Source: Candidatus Micropelagos thuwalensis (GTDB lineage Bacteria > Pseudomonadota > Alphaproteobacteria > RS24). From it: a DNA stretch of 64,000 nt. The stretch spans positions 62,001 to 126,000 of the forward strand of contig NZ_AWXE01000001.1 of NCBI RefSeq assembly GCF_000469155.1, given 5' to 3'. The translations under genes were made by a program, and so were the position numbers. Below the pieces are notes generated by a model, which did no database searches, was not told the DNA's origin, and was given only the letters and a program-made list of their open reading frames with translations. Of this stretch, positions 22,324-41,917 are shown one piece after another. Every line of letters begins with the position of its first letter. Within the stretch, counting starts at the first letter, position 1.

Positions 22324-23028
22324 TTGAACAGAACTGGAAGAGTTTTGACGTCACAGTCCACCGAATTACCCCAAAATTTTGAGAAAAAAGAAACCAGAGG
22401 TCGTAAACGCCTTCTCAAACGTGATGATATTTTGAATGGCGCTTTGTCAATCGGATTGGATAGCCTGACGATGAAAAACCTTGCAGAGCATCTAAATGTC
22501 GGAACAGCGACTCTCTATCAATATTTTGAAAACAGAGAAACCCTCCTGATGGAAGCAGCTGAGTATTCAATCAGATTGTTGCCATTTCCCGATTATAGGG
22601 GGCAGGGTTGGAAAGAACTTGCTCACGAATATACAAAAAATGTACAAAAAATTCTGAAGCAACACCCATCTTTTATCCACAGCCACCCGGTCACAGACTA
22701 TGGTTATAAAATCCATTTCACTCTGACGGAGAAGATTCTCGCCGATTTGGTTTCGTGTGGCCTCGATGCCAAGCAGGCCATTAAAGTTACACATATAATT
22801 ACGATGGCGTCTTACGCTGGTGCTGTTGAGGCCATCCGTCAAGAACGCCTGCCGGTAGAAGGGGCAGATATTCGCGGTTATATTTCTGAGCAATTCAGTG
22901 AAATGGATCACGAGGAGTTCCCAATTTTATCTGAAAATATTGATGCCTTTATTCTCTCAGCTGAGGATAAGATAGATTTATTGTTGGAAGTTGCGCTGGC
23001 TAATATTCAAGACGAATTTAAAACATAA
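22324..23028 (+). CDS. TetR-family transcriptional regulator
   Basis: This regulator of about 234 residues has an N-terminal basic stretch (KKETRGRKRLLKRDD) and a TetR helix-turn-helix: ILNGALSIGLDSLTMKNLAE, then LNVGTATLYQYFENRETLL. The rest is an all-helical ligand-binding domain. The start is uncertain: the listed one is a TTG, and another TTG at 22345 is possible; there is no good ATG. It is divergent from the SDR-ALDH operon and 25 bases upstream of a sulfatase gene in its own direction. It probably represses both units until a ligand, perhaps a pathway intermediate, releases it. Confidence 0.88.
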   Translation: MNRTGRVLTSQSTELPQNFEKKETRGRKRLLKRDDILNGALSIGLDSLTMKNLAEHLNVGTATLYQYFENRETLLMEAAEYSIRLLPFPDYRGQGWKELAHEYTKNVQKILKQHPSFIHSHPVTDYGYKIHFTLTEKILADLVSCGLDAKQAIKVTHIITMASYAGAVEAIRQERLPVEGADIRGYISEQFSEMDHEEFPILSENIDAFILSAEDKIDLLLEVALANIQDEFKT

Positions 23029-23053
23029 AAAAATTAACGGGGGGGATGGTTTT

Positions 23054-24544
23054 ATGCGTTTAAGTTTTTTAACCTTAATTTTTGTCGCCTTCATTTGTGG
23101 TGCAGAAGCTGAAGAAAAACCGAATATTGTTATTTTTCTAGCTGATGATCTGGGATATGCCGACCTTGGCTTTCGTGGGAGTGATATCCAGACGCCAAAT
23201 CTTGACCGTCTAGCGTCTGAAGGTATGGTTCTTAATCGGTTTTACTCTTTACCGATTTGCACACCAACCCGTTCAGCATTAATGACCGCCCGTGATCCCA
23301 TAAAGCTGGGGACTGCTTATGCCGGTTTGCAACCTTGGGAACATGGCGGCGTGTCTCCTGAAGAACATTTTATGCCGGAAAGTTTCCGGAAGGCCGGTTA
23401 TCAAACTGCAATGATTGGAAAGTGGCATATCGGGCGGCAATATGAGTCGCTTGTGCCACATCATCGCGGCTTTGATCATTTTTTCGGTCATCTGAATACT
23501 CAAGTTGATTATTACACGCATGAGTCTGCCGGCGGTCATGATTTACAGGAGAACGGTAAGTCGCTCAAAAGAGACGCTTATGCCACTGATATTCATGGGG
23601 ACGAGTCGGTACGATTTTTAAAAGAGTTGCGCGACCCAGCTAAACCTTTCTTACTCTACGTGCCATTTCTTGCCCCCCACAGCCCAATGCAAGCACCTGA
23701 AGAATTAGAGGCTAAATATAAGTCCCGCCTTAATTTCCCTATTCCCAAACGTACTTATGCTGCCATGGTCGACTCTATGGATCAGGCAATTGGGCGTATT
23801 CTTGATGAGTTGGAGCGTCAAGGCGTGAGTGACAATACAATCATATTGTTTTTCAGTGATAATGGTGGATTTGCTGGTTTTGGTGGTGTCAATGAACCTT
23901 ACCGTGGAGGCAAGTTGGAAACCTTTGAGGGGGGTATAAGAGTCAACGCTATTATGCGCTGGCCTGGTAAAATACCAGCCGGAAGCGAAACCACGCAAAC
24001 CATTTCGGTTATGGATGTGTTTCCAACACTCGCCGCTGCTGCTAATATCAAGATGCATAATAAGAAAAAAATTGATGGGATAGATGTTTTGTCCTCTATG
24101 ACAAAATCAAAAAACATAAAACGTTCTAAGCCACTTTTCTTTGCATCAAACAGTCCGGAATATAATTCATTCCGTTTAGCGATGATTGAGGGAGATCATA
24201 AGTTGGTGCAAATTATTGACCATCATAACAGATCAACTGAAATAACCAATTATCTGTTCGATTTGGGCGAAGACCCTTATGAGAAGAATAATTTGGCGGA
24301 GGAAAACCCGTTGCGGGTTAAAAAGATGTCTGATGCAATTAATGACTGGCGTTCGCAGCATCCTGTAAGCGGTCTTTATGTGTCTATTTCGCCTAACCCA
24401 GCATGGCGTGCACCGGCTGATTATGCTGAGGATGTGAAACCTGACGACAAGACCTTGCTTCAGCCTTGGGCAGGTTTTGGTCGCGTCGCATCACAAGTGT
24501 TGCAAATGCGCTATGGTGAAAAGGGACGTATTAAATACGAGTAA
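23054..24544 (+). CDS. Secreted arylsulfatase, type I (formylglycine family)
   Basis: This 496-residue protein is a close paralogue of the sulfatase at 295-1827. It has a signal peptide (about residues 1-19), KPNIVIFLADDLGY with metal-binding Asp 31 and 32, and CTPTRSALMTARD with the formylglycine Cys at 69. It shares the same C-terminal pattern ending in GEKGRIKYE. The ATG at 23054 has GGGGGG upstream; the longer frame overlaps the TetR gene and is rejected. Part of a TetR-sulfatase-MBL operon, so regulated desulfation is likely. It differs from its paralogue in Thr for Ser after the Cys. Sulfate ester hydrolysis is known for the family; the exact ester is not known. Confidence 0.93.
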   Translation: MRLSFLTLIFVAFICGAEAEEKPNIVIFLADDLGYADLGFRGSDIQTPNLDRLASEGMVLNRFYSLPICTPTRSALMTARDPIKLGTAYAGLQPWEHGGVSPEEHFMPESFRKAGYQTAMIGKWHIGRQYESLVPHHRGFDHFFGHLNTQVDYYTHESAGGHDLQENGKSLKRDAYATDIHGDESVRFLKELRDPAKPFLLYVPFLAPHSPMQAPEELEAKYKSRLNFPIPKRTYAAMVDSMDQAIGRILDELERQGVSDNTIILFFSDNGGFAGFGGVNEPYRGGKLETFEGGIRVNAIMRWPGKIPAGSETTQTISVMDVFPTLAAAANIKMHNKKKIDGIDVLSSMTKSKNIKRSKPLFFASNSPEYNSFRLAMIEGDHKLVQIIDHHNRSTEITNYLFDLGEDPYEKNNLAEENPLRVKKMSDAINDWRSQHPVSGLYVSISPNPAWRAPADYAEDVKPDDKTLLQPWAGFGRVASQVLQMRYGEKGRIKYE

Positions 24545-24556
24545 TTGGAGGGGGCT

Positions 24557-25981
24557 ATGGGGAATTTTATAAAATATTTAATATTCGGCGTAATTGGCCT
24601 CGTCGTGATAGGCATCTTAACTTATCAATATTCCGATAGTGCTAAAAAACAGGTGCAATTACAGGCACTTGATACCGTTCACGACCTGGCTACCAACCGT
24701 ATGAAAAAACAGGCGGAAAATGGTTCGACAAGCGTAGCGGCGGAATTTATTAATCTCCCCATTGAAGCGACTGAAGTTGCTGATGGTGTTTTCCGGGTCA
24801 CGGGTATTGGTAATATTTACATGGTGACAACCGATGCGGGCAATGTGCTGTTCGATACAGGACTAGTGATGCAGGTTCCAAAACAAATTGCCGCCATGAA
24901 AGAGGTTGTGCAGGACAATAAGCTTTCCCATATTATTCTCAGTCATTCTCATGCTGACCATATTGGCGGTGTGAAATACTGGAGAGAAGAAGGCGTTGAG
25001 ATTATCGCTCATGACCAGTTCACCGAGGAACAGCGCTACCTTAAAGCCCTGGAACCTTATTTGCATAATCGTAACCGTCTTTTGTTTCCTTTCATGCCTG
25101 AAAAGCCACCAACGGCTGAAATGATTGCATATGGTGGGATTACGCCGACGCTTACAGTGAAAGAAGGTGATAGTTATCGTCTGGAACTGGGCGGTAAAGT
25201 CATGGAAATTTACGCCATGGCAGGCGCTGAGGGCGCGGATAATGTTGTGATGTGGTTGCCGGAGCAGAAAGTGCTTCTCTCAGGTGATTTTTTTGGCCCT
25301 ATGTTTCCACAATTTCCAAATGTCTTCACAATGCGTGGTGAGAAAATCCGCAAGCCGATGGAATACATTAAATCGCTCAATCGTTTGATTGAACTGGCAC
25401 CAGAAGTCATTATGCCGGGGCATCTTGATCCTGTGAGAGGAGAAGAAAAGATTGTTGCTGGTCTGACAAAAATGAGAGACGCCGTGCAATATGTTCATGA
25501 TGAAACCATTGCCGGTATGAATAGTGGTAAAACACTTTATCAGTTGATGGAAACAATTAGTTTGCCGCCGGAACTTGAGTTATCACAAGCGCATGGGCGT
25601 GTGTCCTGGGCAGTGAAAAGTATCTGGGAATATTATGCAACATGGTTCCATTTTGACCGCACAACAGAGCTTTACGGTGTCGACAGAGGTGACGTGATGC
25701 CTGATGTCGTTGCGCTAGCTGGGGTCGATGCTTTGCTCGATAAAGCCCGTTCATTTAATAAGGCGGGCCAGCCAGTTCACGCTATGCATATAATTGAAAT
25801 TTTGTTGGCGGATCCTACACAGGCCTCAGATCCAAGCGTTAATAAGGTTCGTTTGGAGGCTCTACAGCTATTGCTTGATGAAGCCATTAATGGGATTGAA
25901 AACAGTTATGAGATTTATTGGCTTAATGCGCAAATTCGTCTAGCAGAGGGTGCGATAGCTGAAGAGGGTGAAGCCCCTTAA
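24557..25981 (+). CDS. Metallo-beta-lactamase-fold alkylsulfatase-like protein, membrane-anchored
   Basis: This 474-residue protein has an N-terminal transmembrane anchor (about residues 5-24). The MBL domain carries ILSHSHADHIGG, the HxHxDH zinc motif. LLSGDFFGPMFP and MPGHLDPVRG are further family motifs. A C-terminal helical part contains GRVSWAVKSIWEYYATWFHFDRTTELYGV-like residues (about 349-375), matching the dimerisation domain of SdsA1-type alkylsulfatases (type III sulfatases). It lacks the extra C-terminal SCP2-like domain of full-length SdsA1 (about 650 residues). GGAGGGGG precedes the ATG. Adjacent to an arylsulfatase, so a second sulfatase activity is likely, in the periplasm. Confidence 0.83.
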   Translation: MGNFIKYLIFGVIGLVVIGILTYQYSDSAKKQVQLQALDTVHDLATNRMKKQAENGSTSVAAEFINLPIEATEVADGVFRVTGIGNIYMVTTDAGNVLFDTGLVMQVPKQIAAMKEVVQDNKLSHIILSHSHADHIGGVKYWREEGVEIIAHDQFTEEQRYLKALEPYLHNRNRLLFPFMPEKPPTAEMIAYGGITPTLTVKEGDSYRLELGGKVMEIYAMAGAEGADNVVMWLPEQKVLLSGDFFGPMFPQFPNVFTMRGEKIRKPMEYIKSLNRLIELAPEVIMPGHLDPVRGEEKIVAGLTKMRDAVQYVHDETIAGMNSGKTLYQLMETISLPPELELSQAHGRVSWAVKSIWEYYATWFHFDRTTELYGVDRGDVMPDVVALAGVDALLDKARSFNKAGQPVHAMHIIEILLADPTQASDPSVNKVRLEALQLLLDEAINGIENSYEIYWLNAQIRLAEGAIAEEGEAP

Positions 25982-25983
25982 AA

Positions 25984-27186
25984 TTAAATTAATATCCTTT
26001 CAGCGAACCAGAACAAACCCAGCCCAAATAGTGCAGGTGCAACAAAATATTCAACCCTATCGCGCCTGAAGCTCGTTCGCTTTTCTAAGCCGAATATCAA
26101 AATATAGACTGTCATGAGGGCAATAAGTTGAGCCAGTTCGACACCAAGATTAAAGCCAATTAACGGCGTCAGGATGTCGCTTTTGTCCAGATTAATATGT
26201 TTTAACCCACCCGCAAAACCTGCGCCGTGAACAAGCCCGAAAGCGACAGTAAGTAAAGGAAAGAGTTTTGTCTTTATGTGACCGGATTGGCTCAAATGAT
26301 GGTAGCTAAACAGTGCCAGCGGCAGGGTAAAGAATAAACCCGTTACAAGTGGTAAGCGCCCAATATATATCGCTAACCCGCAAATGAGCATTATTGCAAT
26401 GCTGAGTAGCATGGCAGAAGGCGTGTGGGTTGCCCCTTTTTTTCCTGCAACATCATAAGCCGTAAGTGCGATAGTTAGGCCAATGAGTGCCTCTACAAGC
26501 TTTTCTCGTGGCGTGATGATATCTACGAAAGCCAATCCAAGAGTCAGGCTATGCCCGAGAGTGAAGCCGGTAATGCATAAAACAGCTAATCGCGGACGCG
26601 TAGCAAAAAGTGCCAGAGCAAGCAGAAAAATCATGTGATCCAGACCTGAGATGACATGAAAAAAACCAAGGTGGATAAAAGCGTTTAAGCTATCAATAAA
26701 GCTTGTGGCTTCAAAAACAAAATACTGCTTTGCATTATTGAGGACAATCTCCTGATTTTCTCCAGCAATTGAAAACCTGGCGAGATGAATGTGGGAGGGC
26801 GAAACTAAAGTGAAGCTTGTTATCTCTATCTGAGGTGGTTCTGTGCTGACGGTCTCCAAACAACTAAAAACCCCTCGGGCGCGAAAATAGCCTAGCTTAT
26901 CGTGCTGACCAACTTCCAAGCTTTCAGGCTTACAGCGGCTCTTATTTTGGGTGACGTTTATGGTCTCCATGAGATGACTTTTCAGCAGTGCCGCATAGTC
27001 TACAGACGGATAAAGCTGTGCAAGTTGGGTGATGCGCCGTTGGTCAACTGAGAAAAGGAATTTCAGGCGATGATTCTCAGTTTGGGAGATGACCTCCCAT
27101 TGAGAAAAAGACTGACTTTTGGTGTGTGCTAAAGCATCCGTCTGAATGCCAACCATGAGAGCTATGAATAGGAATAATGTGCGCAT
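25984..27186 (-). CDS. HupE/UreJ-2 family membrane protein with N-terminal periplasmic domain
   Basis: This 400-residue protein has a signal peptide (about residues 1-20, cut before HTKSQ) and a soluble domain of about 150 residues. The HupE/UreJ_2 domain follows, with HVISGLDHMIFLLALALF, GFTLGHSLTLGLAF and AFGLVHGAGFAGGL across about six or seven membrane segments. Conserved His and Asp in these helices suggest metal ion transport; classical HupE proteins move nickel or cobalt. The ATG at 27186 overlaps the stop of the isomerase gene (TGATG). The trio DUF3604, isomerase and HupE suggests metal supply to the exported DUF3604 enzyme, but that is inference. Confidence 0.86.
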   Translation of the reverse strand: MRTLFLFIALMVGIQTDALAHTKSQSFSQWEVISQTENHRLKFLFSVDQRRITQLAQLYPSVDYAALLKSHLMETINVTQNKSRCKPESLEVGQHDKLGYFRARGVFSCLETVSTEPPQIEITSFTLVSPSHIHLARFSIAGENQEIVLNNAKQYFVFEATSFIDSLNAFIHLGFFHVISGLDHMIFLLALALFATRPRLAVLCITGFTLGHSLTLGLAFVDIITPREKLVEALIGLTIALTAYDVAGKKGATHTPSAMLLSIAIMLICGLAIYIGRLPLVTGLFFTLPLALFSYHHLSQSGHIKTKLFPLLTVAFGLVHGAGFAGGLKHINLDKSDILTPLIGFNLGVELAQLIALMTVYILIFGLEKRTSFRRDRVEYFVAPALFGLGLFWFAERILI

Positions 27187-28112
27187 CAATTCATAGAGTC
27201 TGGTGGTGTGGTGTAATCGCTTCGGTCGACAGTCTCAATCACATCGTCATAAAGCCTGATGTCAGCTGCCCGTCTCAAGTCGGAAAGATAGGTTTCAAAT
27301 GCCTTTTCCTCCTGCCTTCTTTGCCATTCTGCTTTTACGATGTCAGCAACCTCATCAAAGTCAACCTCAGTTCGTGTAGCCTTCATCAACCAGATGAACA
27401 TATAGCTTTGTTTTAAGTCTGACCCTGACTTTATTGGCCCAATAATCTCGTCTTGTTTTAATGTTGCAAGCCTGTCTCGTGCGGTACCCCCAAGATAATC
27501 AGCAGCTTTACCAAGAGGAATGTCATCAGGTAAATCTTTTTCAATTAAACCGAGGCGGCGGCCAGCAGCATCAAAATTTTCACCATTTATCATGGCTTGT
27601 CTAAAGGTGTCTGCAGTCTTAATTTCATCTGTCGTTAAGACCCTGACGCGCACCATGCGCGGCGCAACAAATAAATTTTTATTCTCTTGAAAGAAAGTTT
27701 CGAGTGTCTGCGCGTCTATTTCATAATCCGTAAGGAGAGCTGTGCTTCGCATAAGTGCCTGAACAAGGTTTTTGCGTGCCATAGGATCCGAACGTGCAAG
27801 TCCGATGTTAAGTGCATGCTGAAGGATAACCTCTTCATCAATCAGAACTTGCAGCGCCGATCTTCTATCGGACTCAGTAAGAGTGCGGTCAAGTCCGGCT
27901 TGCATGGCGGTGAGGGCGCGAAGATATTCGACCTTACTGACCGGTTCACCATTTATAGATGCTATTGGAACATCGCCGCGCAATCGTAAGTCTTGATTGC
28001 CAAATTTGGGCGGCAAAATACCCAATGCCGTGAGTAAAGCGAGAGTAAGTCCTGCCAAGCCTGCCAGTGTAAATAGAGGTGTATTTTTCAAAGCGTATTC
28101 AGCCTTGTTCAC
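27186..28112 (-). CDS. Membrane-anchored peptidyl-prolyl isomerase (PpiC/SurA-type)
   Basis: This 308-residue protein has a transmembrane anchor (about residues 12-32). An N-terminal chaperone-like helical region follows (SRRSALQVLIDEEVIL-type, here LQVLIDEEVILQHALNIGLA), then a degenerate parvulin-like domain (APRMVRVRVLTTDE, GENFDAAGRRLGL, DDIPLGKAADYLG). It ends with a helical tail. The layout matches periplasmic foldases of the PpiC/SurA group. It overlaps the HupE gene by one base and starts 18 bases after the DUF3604 gene. It likely folds an exported partner, and the DUF3604 protein is the obvious candidate by position. Confidence 0.83.
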   Translation of the reverse strand: MNKAEYALKNTPLFTLAGLAGLTLALLTALGILPPKFGNQDLRLRGDVPIASINGEPVSKVEYLRALTAMQAGLDRTLTESDRRSALQVLIDEEVILQHALNIGLARSDPMARKNLVQALMRSTALLTDYEIDAQTLETFFQENKNLFVAPRMVRVRVLTTDEIKTADTFRQAMINGENFDAAGRRLGLIEKDLPDDIPLGKAADYLGGTARDRLATLKQDEIIGPIKSGSDLKQSYMFIWLMKATRTEVDFDEVADIVKAEWQRRQEEKAFETYLSDLRRAADIRLYDDVIETVDRSDYTTPPDSMN

Positions 28113-28130
28113 ATGATTACTTGTATCTGA

Positions 28131-30407
28131 CTATTTAGACGATACAGTTGAAGAGCTCGCACCATAATTTAGGTAAATCGGGGAAGACCATGCACGCACA
28201 TCTTTCATGGTCAGACATTCATCATCGCCAGATCTATAATCACCTGTGCAGACTTTTGCTTTTACACAATTACCTTCTTCGTCATATTCGCATTTTATAG
28301 GTTCGGCATTAATCGTTGGCCAAGGCTCCTGAATGGCGCGTGCATAGTAAAGCGTATCTCTCTCTCCTGCTTTAAAGTCAGGGTCGGTGAAAGTGAAGCT
28401 ACAACCATTCTGGTCAGCAGGGCAGTTATGAACGATAAATGGATCTTCAATCAAATCCCCAAGTTTTTCATCTGGTGAGGTTTGTGGACGGATACGCACA
28501 ATCTCAATGCGTTCTATCAGATTGCGCTCATCTGAGGGGTTGTAGCACTCGCCACCACAAATATCATTTAGACGTTCCGCCCCAAGAGCAGCTATGGCGT
28601 GATCAGGGCATCCCGGCTTTTGTTTAAACGAGCCAACTGCTTTGACTTTGAATGTGCCGCTGGATGTAGTGGATACAGATGACCCCATTGGGGTTTCTGT
28701 GCCGTCCTCAGCTACACGGTCAAACCACATCAACATGCGCGGGCCTGATGTCCCATAGGTTTCGCGTCGTTGCATAGCGTCCCATACTTCTTCACGGGAA
28801 CGGCCTTCAGTATGTACAGCCGCAAGACCACCGGTGAGCCAGAAGCTTGACTGCCGCTCAACTTCTGCAAGACCAAGATTCGCATTTTTCGCGAGTTCAT
28901 TAGGGTCAAGCGGATGCACATAAGCATCTACGGGTGTCATTTCAGGTTGTAATCTTTCAAGCCATTCTGCAGATTTCGGGCCAGCCGCTTCAGTATTCAG
29001 GCGTCTACCAAATTCTTTATATCCCGTGCCGGGGCGGGCGCGGTGATTGTCTGAGGAAGAAATAAAACCCCAGTTAAATCGTGTCGGGTTATCTGCATCC
29101 TCGTCAAAACGTGAGAGCGCGAGACCTGCTTGAACACTTGTTAATGGACGGTGATGAAATGCCGGTAAATAACAATCTGTGCATTGACCGGAAAGTAGCC
29201 AGTCGGCGGCACTATCACCACCAATTGCGAGATGGTAGGAAGGTCCCATAAAGGCTGCAATCTCTCTGGCCTCGGAAGCACGTAACGTACATTCTTCAGA
29301 TGATGTTCCCTCGGCGAGACAACGTTCCTCAACGATTTCACCCATACGAACGCAGGAGGGGGTGTAATCCTCAGTGGCGGGTGGACAGATAGCCTTGCCA
29401 TCATCGTCAATTATAAGTGTTTCAAAATCCCTATATTCTTCAGAGTTTCCGTGGCCTGAGAATATTTCAATCAGAGAATATTCCTCTGGTCGGTTCTCAG
29501 GTTTGAGTTGTTTGTCCCACGTCGTATTATGGGGAGTGTAGAGACCCCAACTTGTACCATGCGGAATAATAAGTGGATCAAGATTTTGTTCATCCCTAAG
29601 CTTGCGGATTAAATCGCCGGGTGTCACGGCAGTTTCATAGCAGTTTGCAGGAAGTTCGTTAGAGGGTGTGTTCGTATCGCATTCTGGCACGTCCTGAATA
29701 TTGTTAAAGAAAGTATTGAAATCCCAGTAAATTTGGCGATCTTGAAATTCCATAAGTGACACAATAGCCGGCATGCCCTTGGCATTGTTTCTGAGAGCCA
29801 GCGAAGTGATGCCAGCTGCGGCAATTGTTCTGACAGGAACGTCTTTATCATCTAGCCCCTTAAAAATTACATTTTTATGACCATAGTGAGTTTCAGGCGT
29901 GATGCCCACTTGCGTCCATTCAAAACCAATCATAGACACCATATCGGGGTTAGACTGATCATTGGACTTGGCCTGACATTCGCGAATACTTTGTTTTGCA
30001 TTTTCCCAGCGCTCAGGGATAGAGGCTTCGGCGTGGTCGGTAATGGCCCAAAAATCCAAAGCAGAGCAATAGCGCGCATAATCGCAAGCATCAGCAAGTG
30101 GGTGAAGCCCCTTGCCTTGATAGAGCGGGAGAGACCATAAAAACGCATCTGTTGAATAAGTCGTATGCACATGCAAATCACCAAACATGATTTGCTTTCT
30201 GTAGGGGGTAGGGGCAACTGAGGATTCCGCAGTCTGGCGCGCCAGCACTATATTATCCGGAATGGCTGCGCCTTGAATAATCCCGCGATCGCGTTCGCTA
30301 CCTAAATGTCCGTTTTCTGCTAAAAAGCTGAAGGTAAACCAGCCACCTATCAGAGCTATGATGACCACTGACAGACTTAAGATGACTTTTCTTAAACCAC
30401 TAGACAT
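28131..30407 (-). CDS. DUF3604 protein, large membrane-anchored form
   Basis: This 758-residue protein has a membrane anchor (about residues 8-30), then FGDLHVHTTYSTDA (about 75-88), the metal-binding start of DUF3604. LDFWAITDHAEASIPERW, GHKNVIF, LIIPHGTSWG and ISSSDNHRARPG are later motifs shared with the family. It is rich in Cys pairs in the external domain (for example CTDCYLPAF and CGGECYN), consistent with disulfides in the periplasm. AGGAGGGG precedes the ATG. It is larger than the paralogue at 1848-3749 by about 125 residues. It heads a trio with the isomerase and HupE genes. The reaction is unknown to me. Confidence 0.87.
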   Translation of the reverse strand: MSSGLRKVILSLSVVIIALIGGWFTFSFLAENGHLGSERDRGIIQGAAIPDNIVLARQTAESSVAPTPYRKQIMFGDLHVHTTYSTDAFLWSLPLYQGKGLHPLADACDYARYCSALDFWAITDHAEASIPERWENAKQSIRECQAKSNDQSNPDMVSMIGFEWTQVGITPETHYGHKNVIFKGLDDKDVPVRTIAAAGITSLALRNNAKGMPAIVSLMEFQDRQIYWDFNTFFNNIQDVPECDTNTPSNELPANCYETAVTPGDLIRKLRDEQNLDPLIIPHGTSWGLYTPHNTTWDKQLKPENRPEEYSLIEIFSGHGNSEEYRDFETLIIDDDGKAICPPATEDYTPSCVRMGEIVEERCLAEGTSSEECTLRASEAREIAAFMGPSYHLAIGGDSAADWLLSGQCTDCYLPAFHHRPLTSVQAGLALSRFDEDADNPTRFNWGFISSSDNHRARPGTGYKEFGRRLNTEAAGPKSAEWLERLQPEMTPVDAYVHPLDPNELAKNANLGLAEVERQSSFWLTGGLAAVHTEGRSREEVWDAMQRRETYGTSGPRMLMWFDRVAEDGTETPMGSSVSTTSSGTFKVKAVGSFKQKPGCPDHAIAALGAERLNDICGGECYNPSDERNLIERIEIVRIRPQTSPDEKLGDLIEDPFIVHNCPADQNGCSFTFTDPDFKAGERDTLYYARAIQEPWPTINAEPIKCEYDEEGNCVKAKVCTGDYRSGDDECLTMKDVRAWSSPIYLNYGASSSTVSSK

Positions 30408-30439: not shown

Positions 30440-30895
30440 TTATGGATAGTATCTGCTAATTGTATCCACGACACAAGCAGGGCGTTCCTCGCCATCAATC
30501 TCGATTGTGATGCGTAAGGTAGATTGAATACCACCCTTCATTTCTTCAACAGAGATAAACTCCCCCGTTGCACGAATACGTGCGCCGACTTTAACAGCAT
30601 TCGGAAACCGCGCCATACCGACACCATAGTTCACCCCCATCGACATCTGCTTAACTTCTATCAGTTGAGGTAAAAATTTATTGGCGAGTGATAGTGTTAG
30701 ATAACCGTGAGCAATAGTGCCACCAAACGGGCCGTCCTTCGCTTTCGCCTCATCTACATGTATCCATTGATGGTCGTCGGTGGCGTCCGCAAACATGTTT
30801 ACGCGATCTTGTTTCATTTCCACCCAGTCGGTAGGTCCGAGCTTAACGCCCTCCTGACCAAGAAGAGCTGCAGGTGTTTCATATTGTTTAACCAT
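30440..30895 (-). CDS. MaoC/NodN-like (R)-enoyl-CoA hydratase
   Basis: This 151-residue hot-dog-fold protein has FADATDDHQWIHVDEAKAKDGPFGGTIAHGYLTL split across residues about 33-67. It contains the Asp and His of the hydratase-2 motif (D..D.HQWIH) and the GTIAHGYL segment. The family hydrates trans-2-enoyl-CoA to (R)-3-hydroxyacyl-CoA. It lies 10 bases after an SDR gene and is the last pathway enzyme before the DUF3604 trio. A role in beta-oxidation-type steps on a ring-derived acyl-CoA is likely; the exact substrate is open. Confidence 0.88.
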   Translation of the reverse strand: MVKQYETPAALLGQEGVKLGPTDWVEMKQDRVNMFADATDDHQWIHVDEAKAKDGPFGGTIAHGYLTLSLANKFLPQLIEVKQMSMGVNYGVGMARFPNAVKVGARIRATGEFISVEEMKGGIQSTLRITIEIDGEERPACVVDTISRYYP

Positions 30896-30905
30896 TTTTT
30901 ATCCT

Positions 30906-31694
30906 TTATGCGTGCTGGCTGGAAGATGAGATAACTTCACCCGTGAGATATGATGAATAGTCACTGGCTAAGAAAACCATAATATTAGCCTGTTCCCATA
31001 CTTCACTACCACGCCCGAAAGCTTCTTTTGCTTCAAGCTCAGCAAGTAATTCTTTGGTTGTTACTTTGTGGAGAAATTCATGAATCGCAAGGCTGGGTGC
31101 GACAGCATTGACCCGTACACCGAATTCAGTGCCTTCAATTGCGGCACAGCGCGTCAGGGCCATCACACCAGCTTTCGCGGCGGCATAATGCGCCTGTCCC
31201 TTTTGTGCGCGCCACCCAAGCACTGAGGCATTATTCACAATTACGCCCTGCTGCTGTTCTTTCATAATCTGCATTGCTGCGCGGTTAATTCTAAAGCAAC
31301 CATTTAATGTCACATCAAGAACAATGGACCACTGGTCGTCTGTCATATCAATGATATCTGCAGTGCCACCAAGACCTGCATTGTTGATGACAATATCAAT
31401 ATGGCCGAGTGATTTCTTTGCAGCAGCAAAAAGAGCATCAACATCATCTTGAACTGTGACATTACATAAAGCTGTATCGGGCTTTTGCCCGGTGACTGCT
31501 TCTAGCCTTTCTGCGGCATCAGAAAGCCGTCCTTCATGTATGTCGGAAATGAAAACAGTTGCGCCTTCCTCAATACATTTGCGTGCTGCAGCAAAGCCAA
31601 TGCCAGTTCCTGCCGCGGCGGTAATAACGACTGTTTTTCCGGCAAGAAGATTATGCCCTTCGACGTAAGTAGGCGGGAGTTTCAAATCAACCAT
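30906..31694 (-). CDS. Short-chain dehydrogenase/reductase of the steroid-ring/acyl-CoA type
   Basis: This 262-residue SDR has an N-terminal extension (LPPTYVEGHNLLAGK), then VVITAAAGTGIGFAAARKC, an unusual AAAGTGIG loop. NNAGLGG, Ser in NNASVLG and YAAAK are the catalytic elements. That loop and extension resemble SDRs encoded with steroid C/D-ring genes in actinobacteria as I remember them. The start overlaps the end of the acyl-CoA dehydrogenase gene by eight bases. It probably oxidises a hydroxyacyl-CoA or ring hydroxyl in the HIP part of the pathway. Confidence 0.87.
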   Translation of the reverse strand: MVDLKLPPTYVEGHNLLAGKTVVITAAAGTGIGFAAARKCIEEGATVFISDIHEGRLSDAAERLEAVTGQKPDTALCNVTVQDDVDALFAAAKKSLGHIDIVINNAGLGGTADIIDMTDDQWSIVLDVTLNGCFRINRAAMQIMKEQQQGVIVNNASVLGWRAQKGQAHYAAAKAGVMALTRCAAIEGTEFGVRVNAVAPSLAIHEFLHKVTTKELLAELEAKEAFGRGSEVWEQANIMVFLASDYSSYLTGEVISSSSQHA

Positions 31695-32844
31695 TTGTAT
31701 TGCCTCTTGGTTCTTTTGGCATGCCTAGTGCGCGTTCTGAAATTATATTGCGCTGAATTTGGTTGGTGCCTGCATAAATCGTGTCTGCACGGGAGAACAG
31801 GAATAGCTTTTGCATAGGCGAAAGTTCATCTTCAATAATTTCGGCATCTGCACCGATAACGTCCATAGCCAGTTCACCTAAATCGCGGTGCCAGGTCGCC
31901 CAAAAGATTTTTGAGATATAACCTTCTTTGCTGGTACTGCCATCTTGTGTGCCATTTAACATGCGGAGTGCGTTAAAGCGCATTACCTTCAGACCGGCAT
32001 GTGCTTCGGCAATACGTCGGCGAAGAGAGGGATCATTTGCGCGCCCGTTTTCGTTGGCAGTTTTGATGATGAGGTTCAGCTCATTTTGGAACATCATTTG
32101 TTGACCGAGGGTTGATGCGCCGCGCTCAAAGCCCAGTAGTGCCATGGCAATCTTCCAGCCTTCACCGACCTCTCCAATTATATTATCAGCCTCTGTTTTG
32201 GCTTCTGTGAAATAAACTTCGTTAAATTCCGCTGTGCCGCTAATCTGGTGAATGGGACGAATATCTATACCCGGCTGGTCAAGTTCAACCAATAAGAAGA
32301 CCAGACCGTCGCGACCTTTCGTACCTTCTTCAGCGCGCGCAAGAACAAAAATCCAGTCAGACTCATGCGCCAGCGAGGTCCAAATTTTCTGCCCGTCAAT
32401 CACCCAGTGACCATCAACGAGACGTGCTTTTGTCTTGATGTTGGAAAGGTCAGACCCCGCATTTGGTTCAGAATAACCCTGACACCACAATTCGGTGCCG
32501 TTTTTAATGCCGGGGAGAAAGCGTTCTTTTTGTGCTTGCGTTCCATAAGCCAAAATAGTTGGTGCCATTAATGTTTCACCAATATGGCCTGCACGTCCCG
32601 GCCCACCATGACGCGCATATTCCTCGTTAAACTCGACAAAATCCATTAGGCTTAAATCGCGTCCGCCATATTCTTTGGGCCATTGCAGGCCAATCCATCC
32701 GGCCTCCCCAAATTTTTGTTCCCATGCGCGTCTTAATTCGGGTGAGGAGTCCTCATCACCGGGGCCACCACGCCATCTGATTTGTTCAAATTCGCCGGTT
32801 AAATTCTCCAACATCCATTGGTTGAGTTCTTCGCGAATGCTCAT
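31687..32844 (-). CDS. Acyl-CoA dehydrogenase, large subunit of a pair (FadE30/IpdE1-like)
   Basis: This 385-residue flavoprotein has the ACAD fold. WCQGYSEPNAGSDLSNIKT is the flavin-contact motif, DGQKIWTSLAHESDW is a family strand, and TIYAGTNQIQRNIISERALG ends the protein. At the place of the MCAD catalytic Glu (YEGT) it reads YAGT, as in several steroid ACADs. The same length and ending occur in the enzyme at 37013-38170. It lies one base from the next ACAD gene, supporting a two-gene alpha/beta enzyme as known for IpdE1-IpdE2 and ChsE pairs. The likely step is dehydrogenation of a ring-derived acyl-CoA. Confidence 0.88.
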   Translation of the reverse strand: MSIREELNQWMLENLTGEFEQIRWRGGPGDEDSSPELRRAWEQKFGEAGWIGLQWPKEYGGRDLSLMDFVEFNEEYARHGGPGRAGHIGETLMAPTILAYGTQAQKERFLPGIKNGTELWCQGYSEPNAGSDLSNIKTKARLVDGHWVIDGQKIWTSLAHESDWIFVLARAEEGTKGRDGLVFLLVELDQPGIDIRPIHQISGTAEFNEVYFTEAKTEADNIIGEVGEGWKIAMALLGFERGASTLGQQMMFQNELNLIIKTANENGRANDPSLRRRIAEAHAGLKVMRFNALRMLNGTQDGSTSKEGYISKIFWATWHRDLGELAMDVIGADAEIIEDELSPMQKLFLFSRADTIYAGTNQIQRNIISERALGMPKEPRGNTNG

Positions 32845-32845
32845 G

Positions 32846-33967
32846 TCATTTTCCCATTATTGCTGATGTATTTGATTTAAGACCGATTTGGTCTGCTAGC
32901 ATTTGAAAGCCGTCTTCTGATGACGTGAAGAGGGCGCGGTTGCTGCGGGCGCGTTTGAAAAAGTAGTGTAGGGGGTATTCCCATGTGAACCCTATGCCGC
33001 CATGCATCTGGATGGCATCGCCTGCTATTTTAAAAAAAGCTTCAGAGGCATAGTTTTTAGCAATTAAGGCAGCTTCAAATTTTGCTGTGCGATCACCATC
33101 CAAGTCGGGAGATGCAGCGAAATATGATGCTGATCGAGCGCTTTCCAGAGCAATGAACATATCCGCACATTTATGTTTTACAGATTGAAAGCTACCGATT
33201 TGTCTACCGAATTGAACGCGCTGATTGGCGTAATCCAGTGTCATATCTAAACACCTTTGTCCGCCACCGACACATTCAGCTGCGAGCGCGCCATGGGCGA
33301 TCTGGAGTGTTTGTGAAAAAGCAGTCTCGTCTGTTTTTCCAATCGCCTGTCCGTCAGAGAGTGAAACATTATCAAATGATACTTTTGCCTGACTTCGGGT
33401 TGGATCTATTGAGGCATAAGGCGTGACGCTTAATCCTGCAGTATTCGGACTATAGCCCGTCAGCACGATGTCATTGTCTTTGTTCTGTATTGCGACCAAA
33501 ATGAGGTCGGCATGAACGGCATCTGTTGCCGGAGAGATGGTGCCGTTTAATTTATTGTCTTCAAGGGATAATTTACCTCGCCCATCGAGTGCGGAAATAA
33601 TAATATCACCACTGGCGATTTTACTAAGCAAATCTGCTTTATCGTCTTCACTCGCAAAGGCTTCAATTATATCTGCCGCCAAAACGCAGGTTGAAAAGAA
33701 AGGAGCGCTGAAAAGTGTGTATCCAGTTTCTTCCATAATCACGGTTCGCCCCAAAAGCCCCATATCTGCACCACCATATTGTTCGGCGATACTTATGCCC
33801 GCCATACCTTGATCTCGGGCAAAGCCTTCCCATGCGGCACGGTCAAAACCGTGACCGTCTTTTGCGACACGATGCAATGTCTTGCCGCCATCTTCCCAAT
33901 CAGACAACCAGCCTTTAACGGCTTCCCGGATCATCTCGTGATCTTCTTGGAATGGAAATGGCGGCAT
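32846..33967 (-). CDS. Acyl-CoA dehydrogenase, small-subunit-type partner
   Basis: This 373-residue ACAD homologue has a weaker N-terminal half and a clear C-terminal half: ANQRVQFGRQIGSFQSVKH, then DAIQMHGGIGFTWEYPLHYFFKRA. The first is the helical flavin and subunit-contact motif. It lacks a YEGT-like catalytic loop. Such divergent partners occur in the alpha2beta2 steroid ACADs. GGGAGC precedes the ATG. It is encoded directly before the large-subunit gene at 31687, and the pair probably forms one enzyme. Confidence 0.87.
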   Translation of the reverse strand: MPPFPFQEDHEMIREAVKGWLSDWEDGGKTLHRVAKDGHGFDRAAWEGFARDQGMAGISIAEQYGGADMGLLGRTVIMEETGYTLFSAPFFSTCVLAADIIEAFASEDDKADLLSKIASGDIIISALDGRGKLSLEDNKLNGTISPATDAVHADLILVAIQNKDNDIVLTGYSPNTAGLSVTPYASIDPTRSQAKVSFDNVSLSDGQAIGKTDETAFSQTLQIAHGALAAECVGGGQRCLDMTLDYANQRVQFGRQIGSFQSVKHKCADMFIALESARSASYFAASPDLDGDRTAKFEAALIAKNYASEAFFKIAGDAIQMHGGIGFTWEYPLHYFFKRARSNRALFTSSEDGFQMLADQIGLKSNTSAIMGK

Positions 33968-33972
33968 AGATT

Positions 33973-34851
33973 TTAGCTCCCATAAACCTTTTGAGCTGGT
34001 GGTGTAATATCGATTAACTCGCGGATAACCGCCTCGATTTCTTCCGGCTCATAACGTGCTTCTTTGTCTTTAATCGGGCCAGTTTTGTAGCCATCGGCAA
34101 TGGATAGCTTGCCACCAAAAGCCTCGAAGCAATAACCGTTAATATCAGCTGAGGCCGGGCTGCACAGATAGACAATTAGCGGCGCAACATTTGCAGGGTC
34201 GAATTTGTCGAAGCTACCGTCTTCCGGCGCTCTCATCATATCGGCAAAGACTTCCTCCGTCATGCCGGTGCGGCCTTGCGGCGCAACAGAGTTTGCGGTG
34301 ATGCCATAACGTGCCAGTTCAGCAGATTGGTTGAGGGTGAGTGTTAAAATCCCCCCCTTTGCGGCTGCATAGTTGGTCTGCCCAACAGAGCCTTGAAGCC
34401 CAGCGCCGGAACTTGTGTTGATGATCCGTGCATCTGGGTTTTCTCCATTTTTGGATTTTTCACGCCAATATTTCGCGGCATGTGATGACAGGCAAAAATG
34501 CCCTTTCAGATGCACGCGGATTACATTGTCCCAGTCGTCTTCACTGAGCGATGTAAACATGCGGTCTCGGTTGTTACCTGCATTATTGACAACGGCATGC
34601 ACATCGCCAAAGTGTTCAATCGTGGTGGTCAAAATTTTGCCTGCAGAGGCGTAATCAGTGATGTCGTCAAGGTTAACAATTGCCTGACCACCTGCGTCAT
34701 TGATAATTTTGACAGTTTCAGCAGCGGTATCGGGGTTGATGTCATTGACAACAACATTCCCCCCCGCTGCCCCAAGCGCGATTGCATAGGCGCGGCCAAG
34801 ACCGCCGCCAGCACCGGTTATTATTATTGTTCGGTTATCACACAAGCCCAT
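33973..34851 (-). CDS. SDR, MFE-2-like 3-hydroxyacyl-CoA dehydrogenase type
   Basis: This 292-residue SDR has TGAGGGLGRAYAIALGAAGG, VVNNAGNNRDRMF, Ser in NTSSGAG and YAAAK. The NNAGNNRDR pattern and the C-terminal extension (KDKEARYEPEEIEAVIREL) are typical of the SDR part of multifunctional enzyme 2 and of 17-beta-HSD4-like proteins. These oxidise (R)-3-hydroxyacyl-CoA. It fits with the nearby MaoC (R)-hydratase. It lies two bases after the thiolase gene. An IpdF-like role is an alternative. Confidence 0.87.
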   Translation of the reverse strand: MGLCDNRTIIITGAGGGLGRAYAIALGAAGGNVVVNDINPDTAAETVKIINDAGGQAIVNLDDITDYASAGKILTTTIEHFGDVHAVVNNAGNNRDRMFTSLSEDDWDNVIRVHLKGHFCLSSHAAKYWREKSKNGENPDARIINTSSGAGLQGSVGQTNYAAAKGGILTLTLNQSAELARYGITANSVAPQGRTGMTEEVFADMMRAPEDGSFDKFDPANVAPLIVYLCSPASADINGYCFEAFGGKLSIADGYKTGPIKDKEARYEPEEIEAVIRELIDITPPAQKVYGS

Positions 34852-34853
34852 AG

Positions 34854-36005
34854 TTAAAGCCTTTCTATGATTGTTACATTAGCTAAACCGCCACCTTCAC
34901 ACATGGTTTGCAAACCATAACGTCCGCCAGAATGCTCCAGCTCGTTCAGCAAAGTCGACATAAGTTTTGTGCCTGTTGCACCAAGCGGATGACCCAGTGC
35001 GATTGCCCCGCCATTCACATTGGTTTTTTCATGCGGATAGCCGGTTTCTTTCAACCATGCCATTGGCACGGGAGCAAAGGCTTCGTTAATTTCCACACAA
35101 TCAATATCATCAAGTGACATGCCGGTTTTCTTGAGCGCATATTCCGTAGCGGGAATAGGGGCTGTGAGCATGAAAATCGGATCATCGCCGCGAACACTCA
35201 TGTGATGAACTCTTGCGCGGGGTTTCAGGTTATATTTCTTGACCGCATCTTCAGAGGCTAAGAGCATAGCTGATGATGCATCTGATGTCTGGCTGGAAAT
35301 GCCGGCATGAATTCGTCCGCCTTCTTGAAGCGGTTCAAGGGTCGCCATTTTTTCCATTGTCGTATCGCGTCTGACTGTTTCGTCCATTTCGAGACCGTTA
35401 AACGGAACGACTTCATTATCAAATTTGCCTGCATCAATCGCTGCTGCAGCTCTCTGGTGACTGGCGAGGGCATATTCTTCCATCTCTTCTCTGGAAATAT
35501 CCCATTTTTCGGCAATCAATTCTGCGCCGTGGAATTGTGAGACAGGTTCGTTGCCATATCTTTTGACCCAGCCTTCTGAGCCTGAGAACGGATCGTTAAA
35601 GCCAAGCGGCTGGGCGAGAATCATGGCCGAGCTAATCGGAATTTTTGTCATGGTTTGAACGCCACCTGCAATAACAAGATCTTGAACACCCGCCATGATA
35701 CCTTGAGCGGCAAAATGAACGGCTTGTTGTGACGATCCGCATTGACGGTCAACGCTCACACCTGGAATGGCTTCGGGGAAACCGGCGGTCAGCCAGCATG
35801 TCCGAGCGATATTTCCTGCCAGAGGCCCAACTGCGTCAACACAACCAAAGATAACATCATCATAATCTTCCGCAGGAATATCATGTCTATCAACCAGTGT
35901 GCGCAGAATGAAAGCGCCCAAGTCAGCAGCATGCACTTCTGCCAGCGTACCTTTACGTCTGCCGGTCGGTGTTCGGATTGCATCAATAATGTAAGCTTCG
36001 CCCAT
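34854..36005 (-). CDS. fadA6: Thiolase (acetyl-CoA acyltransferase), FadA6-like
   Basis: This 383-residue thiolase has VDRQCGSSQQAVHFAAQGIM with the nucleophilic Cys near residue 89. EINEAFAPVPMAW, NVNGGAIALGHPLGATGTK and CEGGGLANVTIIERL hold the other catalytic residues (His and the late Cys). The start at 36005 follows AAGGAG; a longer frame overlaps the preceding gene and is rejected. In the KstR2-type steroid operon FadA6 performs a late thiolysis in HIP degradation. Position among FadE and EchA20-like genes supports this, but general beta-oxidation cannot be excluded. Confidence 0.9.
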   Translation of the reverse strand: MGEAYIIDAIRTPTGRRKGTLAEVHAADLGAFILRTLVDRHDIPAEDYDDVIFGCVDAVGPLAGNIARTCWLTAGFPEAIPGVSVDRQCGSSQQAVHFAAQGIMAGVQDLVIAGGVQTMTKIPISSAMILAQPLGFNDPFSGSEGWVKRYGNEPVSQFHGAELIAEKWDISREEMEEYALASHQRAAAAIDAGKFDNEVVPFNGLEMDETVRRDTTMEKMATLEPLQEGGRIHAGISSQTSDASSAMLLASEDAVKKYNLKPRARVHHMSVRGDDPIFMLTAPIPATEYALKKTGMSLDDIDCVEINEAFAPVPMAWLKETGYPHEKTNVNGGAIALGHPLGATGTKLMSTLLNELEHSGGRYGLQTMCEGGGLANVTIIERL

Positions 36006-36015
36006 AATCTTCTCC

Positions 36016-37002
36016 TTAGTAATTGAAAGTTGTACCCGGCCCCAGTTCAGCATCATCGGCTAAAATCATGGCTTCGAGAATATTAATATGATGACTGCGG
36101 TCTCCCCATTCACCGCAAAGAGCCCATACGCGTTTCATGAACATGTGTAGACTAACTTCAAATGTATAACCCATACCGCCATGAACTTGAATGGCTGTTT
36201 CTGCAGCAAGCATGGCCGTGTCAATTGATGAGACTTTCGCCTGATGGACACAGCGTCCCATTTGTGTGGCAGCGAGTTGGACAATCGGACGTGTGAATTC
36301 GATTTGTGTGTGTACATTTGCCAATTGATGTTTAATTGCCTGAAAGGATCCTATTTGCTTGCCGAATTGTTCGCGGTCTTTAGCGTAGTCAACCGATAGG
36401 GCGACCATCCTCTTGGATAGACCGCAAAGGAAGGATGCGTTGAGTATCGTGCCGCGCTGGTCAATCGTGTCCAGACCGTCGCCGGGTATTGAAATTTTAT
36501 AAAGCTTACGCAACGGGTCGATAGATTTTAACGGGGTGAGGGTGACATCGTTTTTATCAATCAGACGCGCCTTGCCGCCTTCACCGATGAGAAACATATC
36601 CGCCAGATCCGCATGGCTAACCATGCCGGATAGTCCGCATACAGGTAGGACTTTTAAATCCCCGGCAATCACGGCATTTAATTCGACAGTTGCCCCCATC
36701 TCGTCGAGAACCGGCACGCTGATGCCTGCTATTTCGATCAGGGGTTCGGTCAGGGCAACATTGCCAGCCATTTCGGCAATACCTGCCATGACAGAAAAAT
36801 CCTGCGCCAGTCCATTTTTTTCTTCTGGTGCCAGAAGCCCAAGCAGGCCAAGCTCAGCAAAATTGTCCCATAATGAAGGGGGGGTATCAGCAGAATCTGA
36901 CTCCAAAAGGTGACGCATATATTCAACTGTATGCTCGCCTGCGAAAAAACCATCCGCCGCGTCGATAAGTTCCTTTTGGTCTGATGTGTAGATCAAATTC
37001 AT
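36016..37002 (-). CDS. Acyl-CoA dehydrogenase, small subunit (FadE33/IpdE2-like)
   Basis: This 328-residue ACAD homologue is shorter than usual (about 380). Its C-terminal half is clear: AKDREQFGKQIGSFQAIKHQ, then AIQVHGGMGYTFEVSLHMF. The N-terminal half is divergent. It lies 10 bases after the 385-residue ACAD gene, making a second alpha/beta pair. IpdE2 (FadE33) in actinobacteria is also short. AAGAGAA precedes the ATG at 37002; a longer frame overlaps the neighbour and is rejected. The pair likely dehydrogenates a ring C/D-derived CoA thioester. Confidence 0.86.
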   Translation of the reverse strand: MNLIYTSDQKELIDAADGFFAGEHTVEYMRHLLESDSADTPPSLWDNFAELGLLGLLAPEEKNGLAQDFSVMAGIAEMAGNVALTEPLIEIAGISVPVLDEMGATVELNAVIAGDLKVLPVCGLSGMVSHADLADMFLIGEGGKARLIDKNDVTLTPLKSIDPLRKLYKISIPGDGLDTIDQRGTILNASFLCGLSKRMVALSVDYAKDREQFGKQIGSFQAIKHQLANVHTQIEFTRPIVQLAATQMGRCVHQAKVSSIDTAMLAAETAIQVHGGMGYTFEVSLHMFMKRVWALCGEWGDRSHHINILEAMILADDAELGPGTTFNY

Positions 37003-37012
37003 GCCGGTTCTC

Positions 37013-38170
37013 TTATTGTCGTGGGAGACCGAGAACACGCTCGGCAAGAATATTACGTTGAATTTCATTTGTTCCGGCGTAGATAGGTCCGGCTAAGCTA
37101 AACATATAGCCATCCAGCCATCTGCCATTCTCAATCGCTCCTTCGCCTTCTTCCAGTTCGGCGTGCATGCCCATTATGGTCATGGCAGTGCGATGCATCG
37201 CGCGATCCATTTCAGACCAAAAGATTTTGTTCGCACTCGCCTCGGAGGATATGGAGGCGCCGCTATCAACTTGTGCGACGAGCGCATAAGTGGCTGCGGT
37301 AAATCTTTCTGTATCGCCCCACGCCTGTAGCACTTGTTCTTTAATACCTGAGGAGAGGCGATTGGCATTTTGCTTATACAGCTTTACCAACCTGGCAGCG
37401 GCGGCCTGAAAGCGTGCGGGGGAACGAAGCAACAGACCTCTTTCAAAACCCGCTGTCGCCATTGCGACACCCCAACCACCATGTTCGGGGCCAAGAAGAT
37501 TATCGACAGGGACACGGACTTCGTCAAAAAACAGTTCGGCGAAACCGGGATCTCCGTCCAGCTGCGCAATCGGGCGGACGGTTAAACCGGGACTATCGAG
37601 GGGCACAAGTATCTTAGATAGGCCGTGATGTCGGCTGCTTTCCGGGTCGGTTCTAAATAAACCAAAACACCAGTCGGCAAAAACGGCACGAGATGACCAA
37701 ATTTTCTGCCCTGTAATTACATACGCGTCACCATCACGCACAGCTTTACTCCGAATAGCTGCCATATCGCTACCTGCACCGGGTTCGGACCAAGCCTGTG
37801 CCCAGATTTCATCACCAGCCGCCATAGGCTTAAGGAAGCGTTCTTTTTGTTCGTCAGTGCCATATTCCATAATGGTCGGGCCAAGAAGGAAGATACCATT
37901 CTGACTCACACGCAAAGGGGCATCGGCGCGATAATATTCTTCTTCAAAAATCAGCCAATCCGTTAGACTACATCCACGCCCACCAAATTCCTCAGGCCAT
38001 GTGACCATGCCCCAATTTCCCGCATGAAGCTTTCTCTCCCATTCGCGGTGAAGGTCAAAACCTTCCTGGGTATCAAGAGAGGGTAGGCGTTCACTTGGGA
38101 CATTGGCGTTTAGCCAGTCCCGCACTTCCTGCCGAAATTGATTTTGCTCATTTGAAAATACGGCTTCCAT
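37013..38170 (-). CDS. Acyl-CoA dehydrogenase, large subunit (FadE30/IpdE1-like)
   Basis: This 385-residue ACAD has AQAWSEPGAGSDMAAIRSK, TGQKIWSSRAVFADW and the C-terminal PIYAGTNEIQRNILAERVLG. The MCAD Glu position is Ala (YAGT), as in the enzyme at 31687. The size equals that of mycobacterial FadE30 (IpdE1) as I remember it. The ATG at 38170 overlaps the stop of the EchA20-like gene (TGATG), so these are coupled. The likely role is first dehydrogenation of the C/D-ring acyl-CoA, together with the 36016-37002 subunit. Confidence 0.88.
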   Translation of the reverse strand: MEAVFSNEQNQFRQEVRDWLNANVPSERLPSLDTQEGFDLHREWERKLHAGNWGMVTWPEEFGGRGCSLTDWLIFEEEYYRADAPLRVSQNGIFLLGPTIMEYGTDEQKERFLKPMAAGDEIWAQAWSEPGAGSDMAAIRSKAVRDGDAYVITGQKIWSSRAVFADWCFGLFRTDPESSRHHGLSKILVPLDSPGLTVRPIAQLDGDPGFAELFFDEVRVPVDNLLGPEHGGWGVAMATAGFERGLLLRSPARFQAAAARLVKLYKQNANRLSSGIKEQVLQAWGDTERFTAATYALVAQVDSGASISSEASANKIFWSEMDRAMHRTAMTIMGMHAELEEGEGAIENGRWLDGYMFSLAGPIYAGTNEIQRNILAERVLGLPRQ

Positions 38171-38928: not shown

Positions 38929-38931
38929 GAT

Positions 38932-39990: not shown

Positions 39991-39994
39991 GAAA

Positions 39995-40906: not shown

Positions 40907-40979
40907 ATTTTGACCCTTTCCGATATTCTAAATACCTTCAATTTTTGAGGTTCTCAGGAAACTGAATTTAATTGGTTGA

Positions 40980-41882: not shown

Positions 41883-41917
41883 CTCGTACCCTCTGTTGAT
41901 TATTTGATTTTTATTTT

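Follow-up and report, generated by a model that had tools for sequence, protein, structure and literature searches.

This computational follow-up concerns three consecutive minus-strand genes in a 64,000-nucleotide stretch of DNA from Candidatus Micropelagos thuwalensis, hereafter the window, on whose whole-stretch numbering all window coordinates are given. They code for a DUF3604 protein, a parvulin-like protein and a HupE_UreJ_2 permease, and a first-pass annotation had read them as a system that folds and metallates an extracytoplasmic metalloenzyme. The trio is laid out as follows, in the direction of transcription:

28131-30407, minus strand: long-type DUF3604 protein (PF12228), ATG start, 758 residues with 20 cysteines; transmembrane (TM) anchor at 8-26, PHP metallohydrolase-fold domain with Cys-rich insertions, C-terminal beta-sandwich at about 556-750
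28113-28130, minus strand: 18-base gap, from the end of the DUF3604 gene to the GTG that starts the parvulin-like gene
27186-28112, minus strand: parvulin-like (SurA_N/Rotamase_2) membrane-anchored protein, GTG start, 308 residues, TM segment at 15-33
25984-27186, minus strand: anglerase-type HupE_UreJ_2 permease, ATG at 27186, 400 residues; signal peptide ending in ALA before His21, Ang-1/ZrgA-like periplasmic domain at about 21-160 (C85, C109, H132xH134), then a membrane domain with HX5DH at 177-184

The parvulin-like stop and the HupE start share one base (TGATG), and a TTG one codon before the HupE ATG is a possible alternative start. The gap, the 1-base overlap and the common strand are all as first described; the span given for them, 25984-28131, holds the HupE and parvulin-like genes and leaves out the DUF3604 gene, which reaches 30407. 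Each product exceeds the cut-off of its family, with 97.8 bits for PF12228 (cut-off 20.4), 37.5 for PF13145 Rotamase_2 (27) and 118.3 for PF13795 (24.5). A promoter and terminator scan gave results no better than shuffles.

The three proteins of the cassette

The view of the large protein as exported and PHP-like is borne out by its single hydrophobic anchor at residues 8-26, by the PHP fold of its AlphaFold model (pLDDT 87, 40 rows) and by its conserved metal ligands. The model resembles 3e38 (Z 17.0 over 239 residues), EndoQ (Z 11.4) and Pol III alpha (Z 9.2). Residues H79, H81, D87, D124, H125, E163, H177, H283, D453 and H455 are shared by 46-47 of the 47 long-type rows and by all 19 classical rows; the motifs DLHVH and TDH, together with E163, H177, H283 and D453/H455, are what we take to be PHP-type metal ligands. 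Sequence and model support the designation of an exported PHP metallohydrolase-like protein. The PF12228 match, which passes its cut-off, consists of two partial stretches only. The long type carries some 20 cysteines, with a range of 15-23 over 47 rows, and 16 of these are invariant in 40 rows; classical rows have 0-7, except for one unpaired copy with 16. Membership of the CehA/McbA family (NF038032) was rejected on a score of 30.5 bits, the cut-off being 80. A PDB sequence search with the protein returned no meaningful relative, and a literature search on DUF3604 only a mention in an annotation table.

The second protein had been called a periplasmic foldase. It is indeed parvulin-like and membrane-anchored, with a Rotamase_2 region over the cut-off and a SurA_N-like region below its own, but for the window copy the reading as a plain active peptidyl-prolyl isomerase was given up. 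V and M occupy two positions at which classical copies, such as L062 of the same genome, have His and which presumably form the parvulin active-site signature. Because both histidines are absent, the window copy is termed chaperone-like. All 16 classical rows have His at the second position, and His or Gln at the first. A role restricted to disulfides was set aside, as classical cassettes keep a parvulin with the second His though their DUF3604 has 0-7 cysteines. The only relative returned by a PDB sequence search with this protein was Cell-binding factor 2 (3rfw).

The third protein was seen as a metal-transport-like membrane protein, in agreement with its PF13795 match and with a periplasmic domain of metal-binding type. 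In the AlphaFold model (pLDDT 78.6, 29 rows) this domain has the Ang-1/ZrgA metal-binding fold: it matches ZrgA (8f1b, Z 12.6), PA4063 (Z 11.2) and Cu-bound Ang-1 (9gce, Z 10.2; root-mean-square deviation 3.1 A over 123 residues at about 11% identity), matches below the eighth row being disregarded as common arrangements. Since model residue 21 aligns with residue 1 of the 9gce chain, His21 would sit at the metal-binding His1 of Ang-1; the model is weakest at residues 17-22, so that the metal site falls outside its reliable part. H21, C85, C109, H132, H134, H177, D183, H184, H212, H320 and E350 do not vary among the 29 rows, and Ala or Ser precedes His21 in every one of them, the cleavage site being predicted from sequence. 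According to the text of PMC12537917, the Ang-1 domain binds Cu (dissociation constant 74 nM) in preference to Ni (220 nM), small negative shifts being seen with Fe, Zn, Mn and Co. A PDB sequence search with HupE found no meaningful relative. Literature searches found no work on HupE_UreJ_2 and none pairing a UreJ family protein with a peptidylprolyl isomerase, and a search on HupE, isomerase, PHP domain and metalloenzyme gave nothing relevant as judged by title.

Linkage and parallel divergence across genomes

The 758-residue DUF3604 protein was scanned against 84,980 species genomes, which gave 47 related loci; the window's own genome is PS1-clade/IMCC14465-like, and its nearest named relatives are 91-94% identical. 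All three genes stand together in 30 of the 47. The remaining 17 comprise 11 loci of a single clade, considered below; L036, where HupE adjoins DUF3604 without a parvulin-like gene on a contig of only 4 kb; L045, L051 and L055, in which the DUF3604 gene reaches or nearly reaches the contig end; and L046 and L053, with DUF3604 and no partners nearby (a parvulin match in L046 that overlaps DUF3604 in another frame was removed as an artefact before counting). Besides the collinear arrangement, the pair of parvulin-like and HupE genes is adjacent to but divergent from DUF3604 in five Pelagibacterales loci, DUF3604 follows HupE in L092 and is convergent with it in L096. The linkage persists through four gene orders.

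The same association was found from the side of the partners in a phylum sample of 199 Pseudomonadota genomes, 44 with PF13795 and 15 with PF12228. A parvulin-like gene is present in 15 of the 59 stretches examined around HupE genes, all from genomes other than the window's own, and these 15 hold an intact DUF3604 in 14 cases and a broken one in the other (L103). None of the 44 stretches lacking the parvulin-like gene has an intact DUF3604. A 13-row parvulin profile, nine rows of which came from sampled genomes outside the window's own, gave 18 top matches of at least 216 bits (15 sampled and three of the window's genome), the next match having 83.9 bits; the subfamily is therefore discrete and, in this sample, confined to the cassette setting. 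All 18 adjoin HupE_UreJ_2, 17 adjoin an intact DUF3604 and one a broken one. No genome of the 199 has the pair without any DUF3604, one having only the broken gene. The first-pass annotation had named lack of conservation as ground for abandoning its proposal, and this ground falls away, the three-gene cassette being conserved.

Other loci hold broken or fused cassette genes, or HupE genes apart from the cassette. At L103:7740-8100 (genome G171) a DUF3604 fragment with an internal stop lies beside an intact pair, and at L123:5899-6897, in one of the 44 stretches that lack the parvulin-like gene, a single reading frame fuses a DUF3604 N-terminus to a HupE C-terminus, apparently an in-frame deletion relic of most of a cassette. 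HupE_UreJ_2 genes without the pair include some in RND efflux operons. In L118:257-6582, and alike in several loci without parvulin, an ECF sigma factor, an RskA-like anti-sigma factor, DUF4331 and a TPR-like protein precede HupE, and at L075:5513-7543 a PII-like DUF3240 protein and DUF6488 flank HupE_UreJ_2 ahead of genes clustering with an RND efflux set.

The window's own genome has three HupE_UreJ_2 genes by PF13795, and all three come last in a row of DUF3604, parvulin-like and HupE genes. One is the window copy, one accompanies a second long-type DUF3604 (L061) and one a classical DUF3604 of 651 residues (L062), from which it follows that the pair would serve two distant DUF3604 subfamilies.

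The three proteins also diverge in parallel. Across 45 cassettes, tree distances correlate at 0.91 for DUF3604 and parvulin, 0.85 for DUF3604 and HupE, and 0.96 for parvulin and HupE; none of 2000 permutations reached these values, to which shared descent contributes. Beyond the group at 91-94%, the nearest relative of all three window proteins is the Aquisalinus cassette (L012, L013) and not the second cassette of the same genome; cassettes thus diverge as units. The adjacency of the trio is more than chance, an explanation rejected on the linkage counts over related loci and the 199 genomes and on the correlated protein distances.

Surroundings of the cassette in the window and on plasmids

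Two groups of neighbours flank the cassette in the window:

30440-43920, minus strand: upstream co-directional catabolic genes, context outside the conserved cassette
22991-25981, convergent with the cassette: sulfatase and alkylsulfatase-like metallo-beta-lactamase

The upstream genes code for an HsaA-like protein (327 bits, below its cut-off of 450), a BphC-type dioxygenase, a thiolase, an NMO-family protein, ECH and SDR proteins, acyl-CoA dehydrogenases and MaoC, the last 32 bases from the DUF3604 gene. By its gene content this same-strand run, with the cassette at its end, looks like steroid ring catabolism. Genes related to those on the other flank occur near cassettes elsewhere, a sulfatase in L082 and L097 and a lactamase in the Pelagibacterales loci L040-L044. 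The predicted functions of the window neighbours suggest an organic ester as DUF3604 substrate here, which cannot be general because other cassettes have other neighbours.

Ten of 79 matching plasmid records were opened, of which three lacked gene annotation and were not counted. Annotated trios were found on plasmids of Sinorhizobium meliloti USDA1021, Ruegeria THAF33 and AD91A, Rhizobium johnstonii, R. leguminosarum and Sinorhizobium K101, where the pair precedes DUF3604. On both Ruegeria plasmids ExbB-ExbD-ExbD-TonB stands directly ahead of DUF3604-parvulin-HupE (L126:2266-8912, L131:3112-9762). The Salipiger CCB-MM3 record has DUF3604 alone. TonB-dependent receptors are also encoded at two DUF3604 loci of the window's own genome (L062:2411-4699, L064:6608-8908).

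Proposed maturation of a metalloenzyme and comparison with known systems

That the cassette combines a metalloenzyme with dedicated helpers is well supported, and enzyme maturation is the simplest use of the trio. Whether the three genes form a self-contained enzyme-plus-maturation module we consider an evenly balanced matter. The steps that we infer, from chaperoning and the direction of metal flow to the metal, the reaction and the substrate, run as follows. DUF3604 would be an exported, membrane-anchored PHP-fold hydrolase with a multinuclear transition-metal site, whose folding in the periplasm is aided by the parvulin-like protein as a dedicated membrane-anchored chaperone. At the periplasmic face, the mature N-terminal His and the HxH site of the anglerase-type HupE would bind a transition metal, and HupE would set the metal received by DUF3604 either by direct handover or by passage through the HupE channel. 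The mature enzyme may then cleave an ester-type bond in an organic compound of exogenous origin and thereby begin a catabolic pathway, the neighbouring genes in the window being of steroid type.

Several observations weigh against such a module. Ang-HupE proteins are proposed, in the text of PMC12537917, for metal uptake, which would run counter to the supply of an enzyme in the periplasm, and it is because its relatives are described as importers that the supply of metal by HupE to DUF3604 is something we infer. Both parvulin-site histidines are present in only one of 33 long-type rows. Among the 16 classical-type cassettes (L062 and the 15 sampled), the predicted mature HupE begins with His in ten and with Asp in six (L089, L091, L097, L103, L109 and L115), and the wider module therefore does not always have His1. 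Half of the six DUF3604 genes of the window's own genome have no adjacent pair (L062 at 11393, L063, L064). Two genomes with a long-type DUF3604 (L053 in G230 and L046 in G232) have no cassette parvulin anywhere, and G230 has no HupE either. Finally, 11 long-type DUF3604 genes lack a neighbouring pair and group as a single clade with support 99, in a tree whose labels count both DUF3604 copies of L109 as cassette and L036 as alone. Ten of the genomes concerned do have a long-type parvulin-HupE pair, on a contig where no DUF3604 was found in its vicinity; the eleventh (G222) has a classical pair only. In seven of the ten the surroundings of the separated pair were inspected and contain no DUF3604; the flanks match those of the L061 cassette in a MutL, an RraA-like and an isocitrate-lyase-like gene (about 82%), the MutL identity to L061 being about 61% in six genomes and 70% in the seventh, at a truncated contig end. 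L134 has a phosphoglucose isomerase gene between MutL and the pair, at the place of DUF3604 in L061, and the other separated-pair loci have a gene of similar length there. DUF3604 and the pair were separated, in whichever order, and both were retained; this clade neither refutes nor proves a dependence of DUF3604 on the pair.

A more specific form of the maturation reading is a dedicated extracytoplasmic metal-insertion machine for PHP hydrolases, made up of the parvulin-like protein and the anglerase-HupE, with the anglerase domain as a tethered metallochaperone supplied from the cytoplasm by the HupE channel, which we regard as possible but rather doubtful. Were it true, DUF3604 would become the first anglerase client to be named, anglerases having been reported in 2025 apparently with no client enzyme named, and the organisation would resemble the maturation of hydrogenase or urease, though at the outer side of the inner membrane.

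The permease could also be the one that is served. In this unlikely alternative, DUF3604 would hydrolyse an organic metal ligand or a metal-bound ester in the periplasm, the Ang domain would capture the freed metal and HupE would import it. For the relatives Ang-HupE and ZrgA a function in metal import has been proposed or shown (PMC12537917, PMC9820375), and the Ruegeria TonB system ahead of the cassette and the TonB-dependent receptors beside two own-genome DUF3604 loci fit such salvage. It is countered by the carbon catabolism neighbours in the window and at two other own-genome DUF3604 loci (the latter named from sequence) and by the three DUF3604 genes without an adjacent HupE, and it leaves the chaperone unexplained. 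PHP enzymes usually use Zn, Mn or Fe, which would suit a HupE that removes competing Cu or Ni from the periplasm and so averts mismetallation of the PHP site while the parvulin-like protein holds the apoenzyme. The occurrence of other HupE_UreJ_2 genes in RND efflux operons and the preference of the solved Ang-1 domain for Cu over Ni (PMC12537917) point the same way; nevertheless, no efflux-type neighbours were recognised in the examined cassettes and mismetallation is a supposition, which makes such clearance quite unlikely. It is very improbable that three envelope genes are merely co-transcribed or co-transferred without joint function. Some co-transfer is to be expected of a cassette that is found on conjugative plasmids, but the exclusive linkage of all 18 parvulin subfamily members over many families, the several gene orders and the co-retention after separation in 10 genomes speak against convenience.

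The practical value of the exclusive three-gene link is that it joins anglerase-HupE to DUF3604 and indicates which proteins to co-express; it makes the role of the one and the metal of the other directly testable in bacteria that can be cultured (Maricaulis maris, rhizobia, Ruegeria). Should the catabolic neighbours be informative, such PHP hydrolases would stand at the start of catabolic routes in the marine PS1 clade and Pelagibacterales.

Five known systems or families stand closest to the cassette. Classical PF12228 proteins share the PHP ligands and are likewise found with the parvulin-HupE pair in many genomes, whereas the long type reaches only 97.8 bits on PF12228, where a classical copy has 789; it exceeds the classical type by about 100 residues and has 20 conserved cysteines that are missing from classical copies. 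The CehA/McbA carbamate hydrolases and the PHP protein 3E38 belong to the same fold class; NF038032 weakly matches the first PHP motifs, and CehA-type hydrolases are likewise thought, in the text of PMC8292978, to be exported. The anglerase Ang-1-HupE/UreJ-2 (9GCE) shares with the window permease a signal peptide, a mature N-terminal His, a beta-sandwich domain and the HupE_UreJ_2 membrane domain, while the window family has an invariant HxH and Cys pair and is tied to DUF3604 and a parvulin-like gene; the words 'DUF3604' and 'isomerase' are absent from the main text of PMC12537917. Among the zinc-binding proteins ZrgA and PA4063 (8F1B, 7AMX), ZrgA is the best fold match of the periplasmic domain and is reported to have a conserved disulfide, as the Cys pair would form here. 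ZrgA occurs free, as the solute-binding component of an ABC importer, whereas the domain in the window is fused to HupE. The nickel permeases HupE of hydrogenase and UreJ of urease share the membrane domain and the position as an accessory gene beside a metalloenzyme; HX5DH we take to be the motif of HupE itself. Contrary to these systems, the client here would be extracytoplasmic and the permease carries a periplasmic domain of metal-binding type. A metalloenzyme with dedicated accessory genes is a known kind of system, of which the cassette is a variant.

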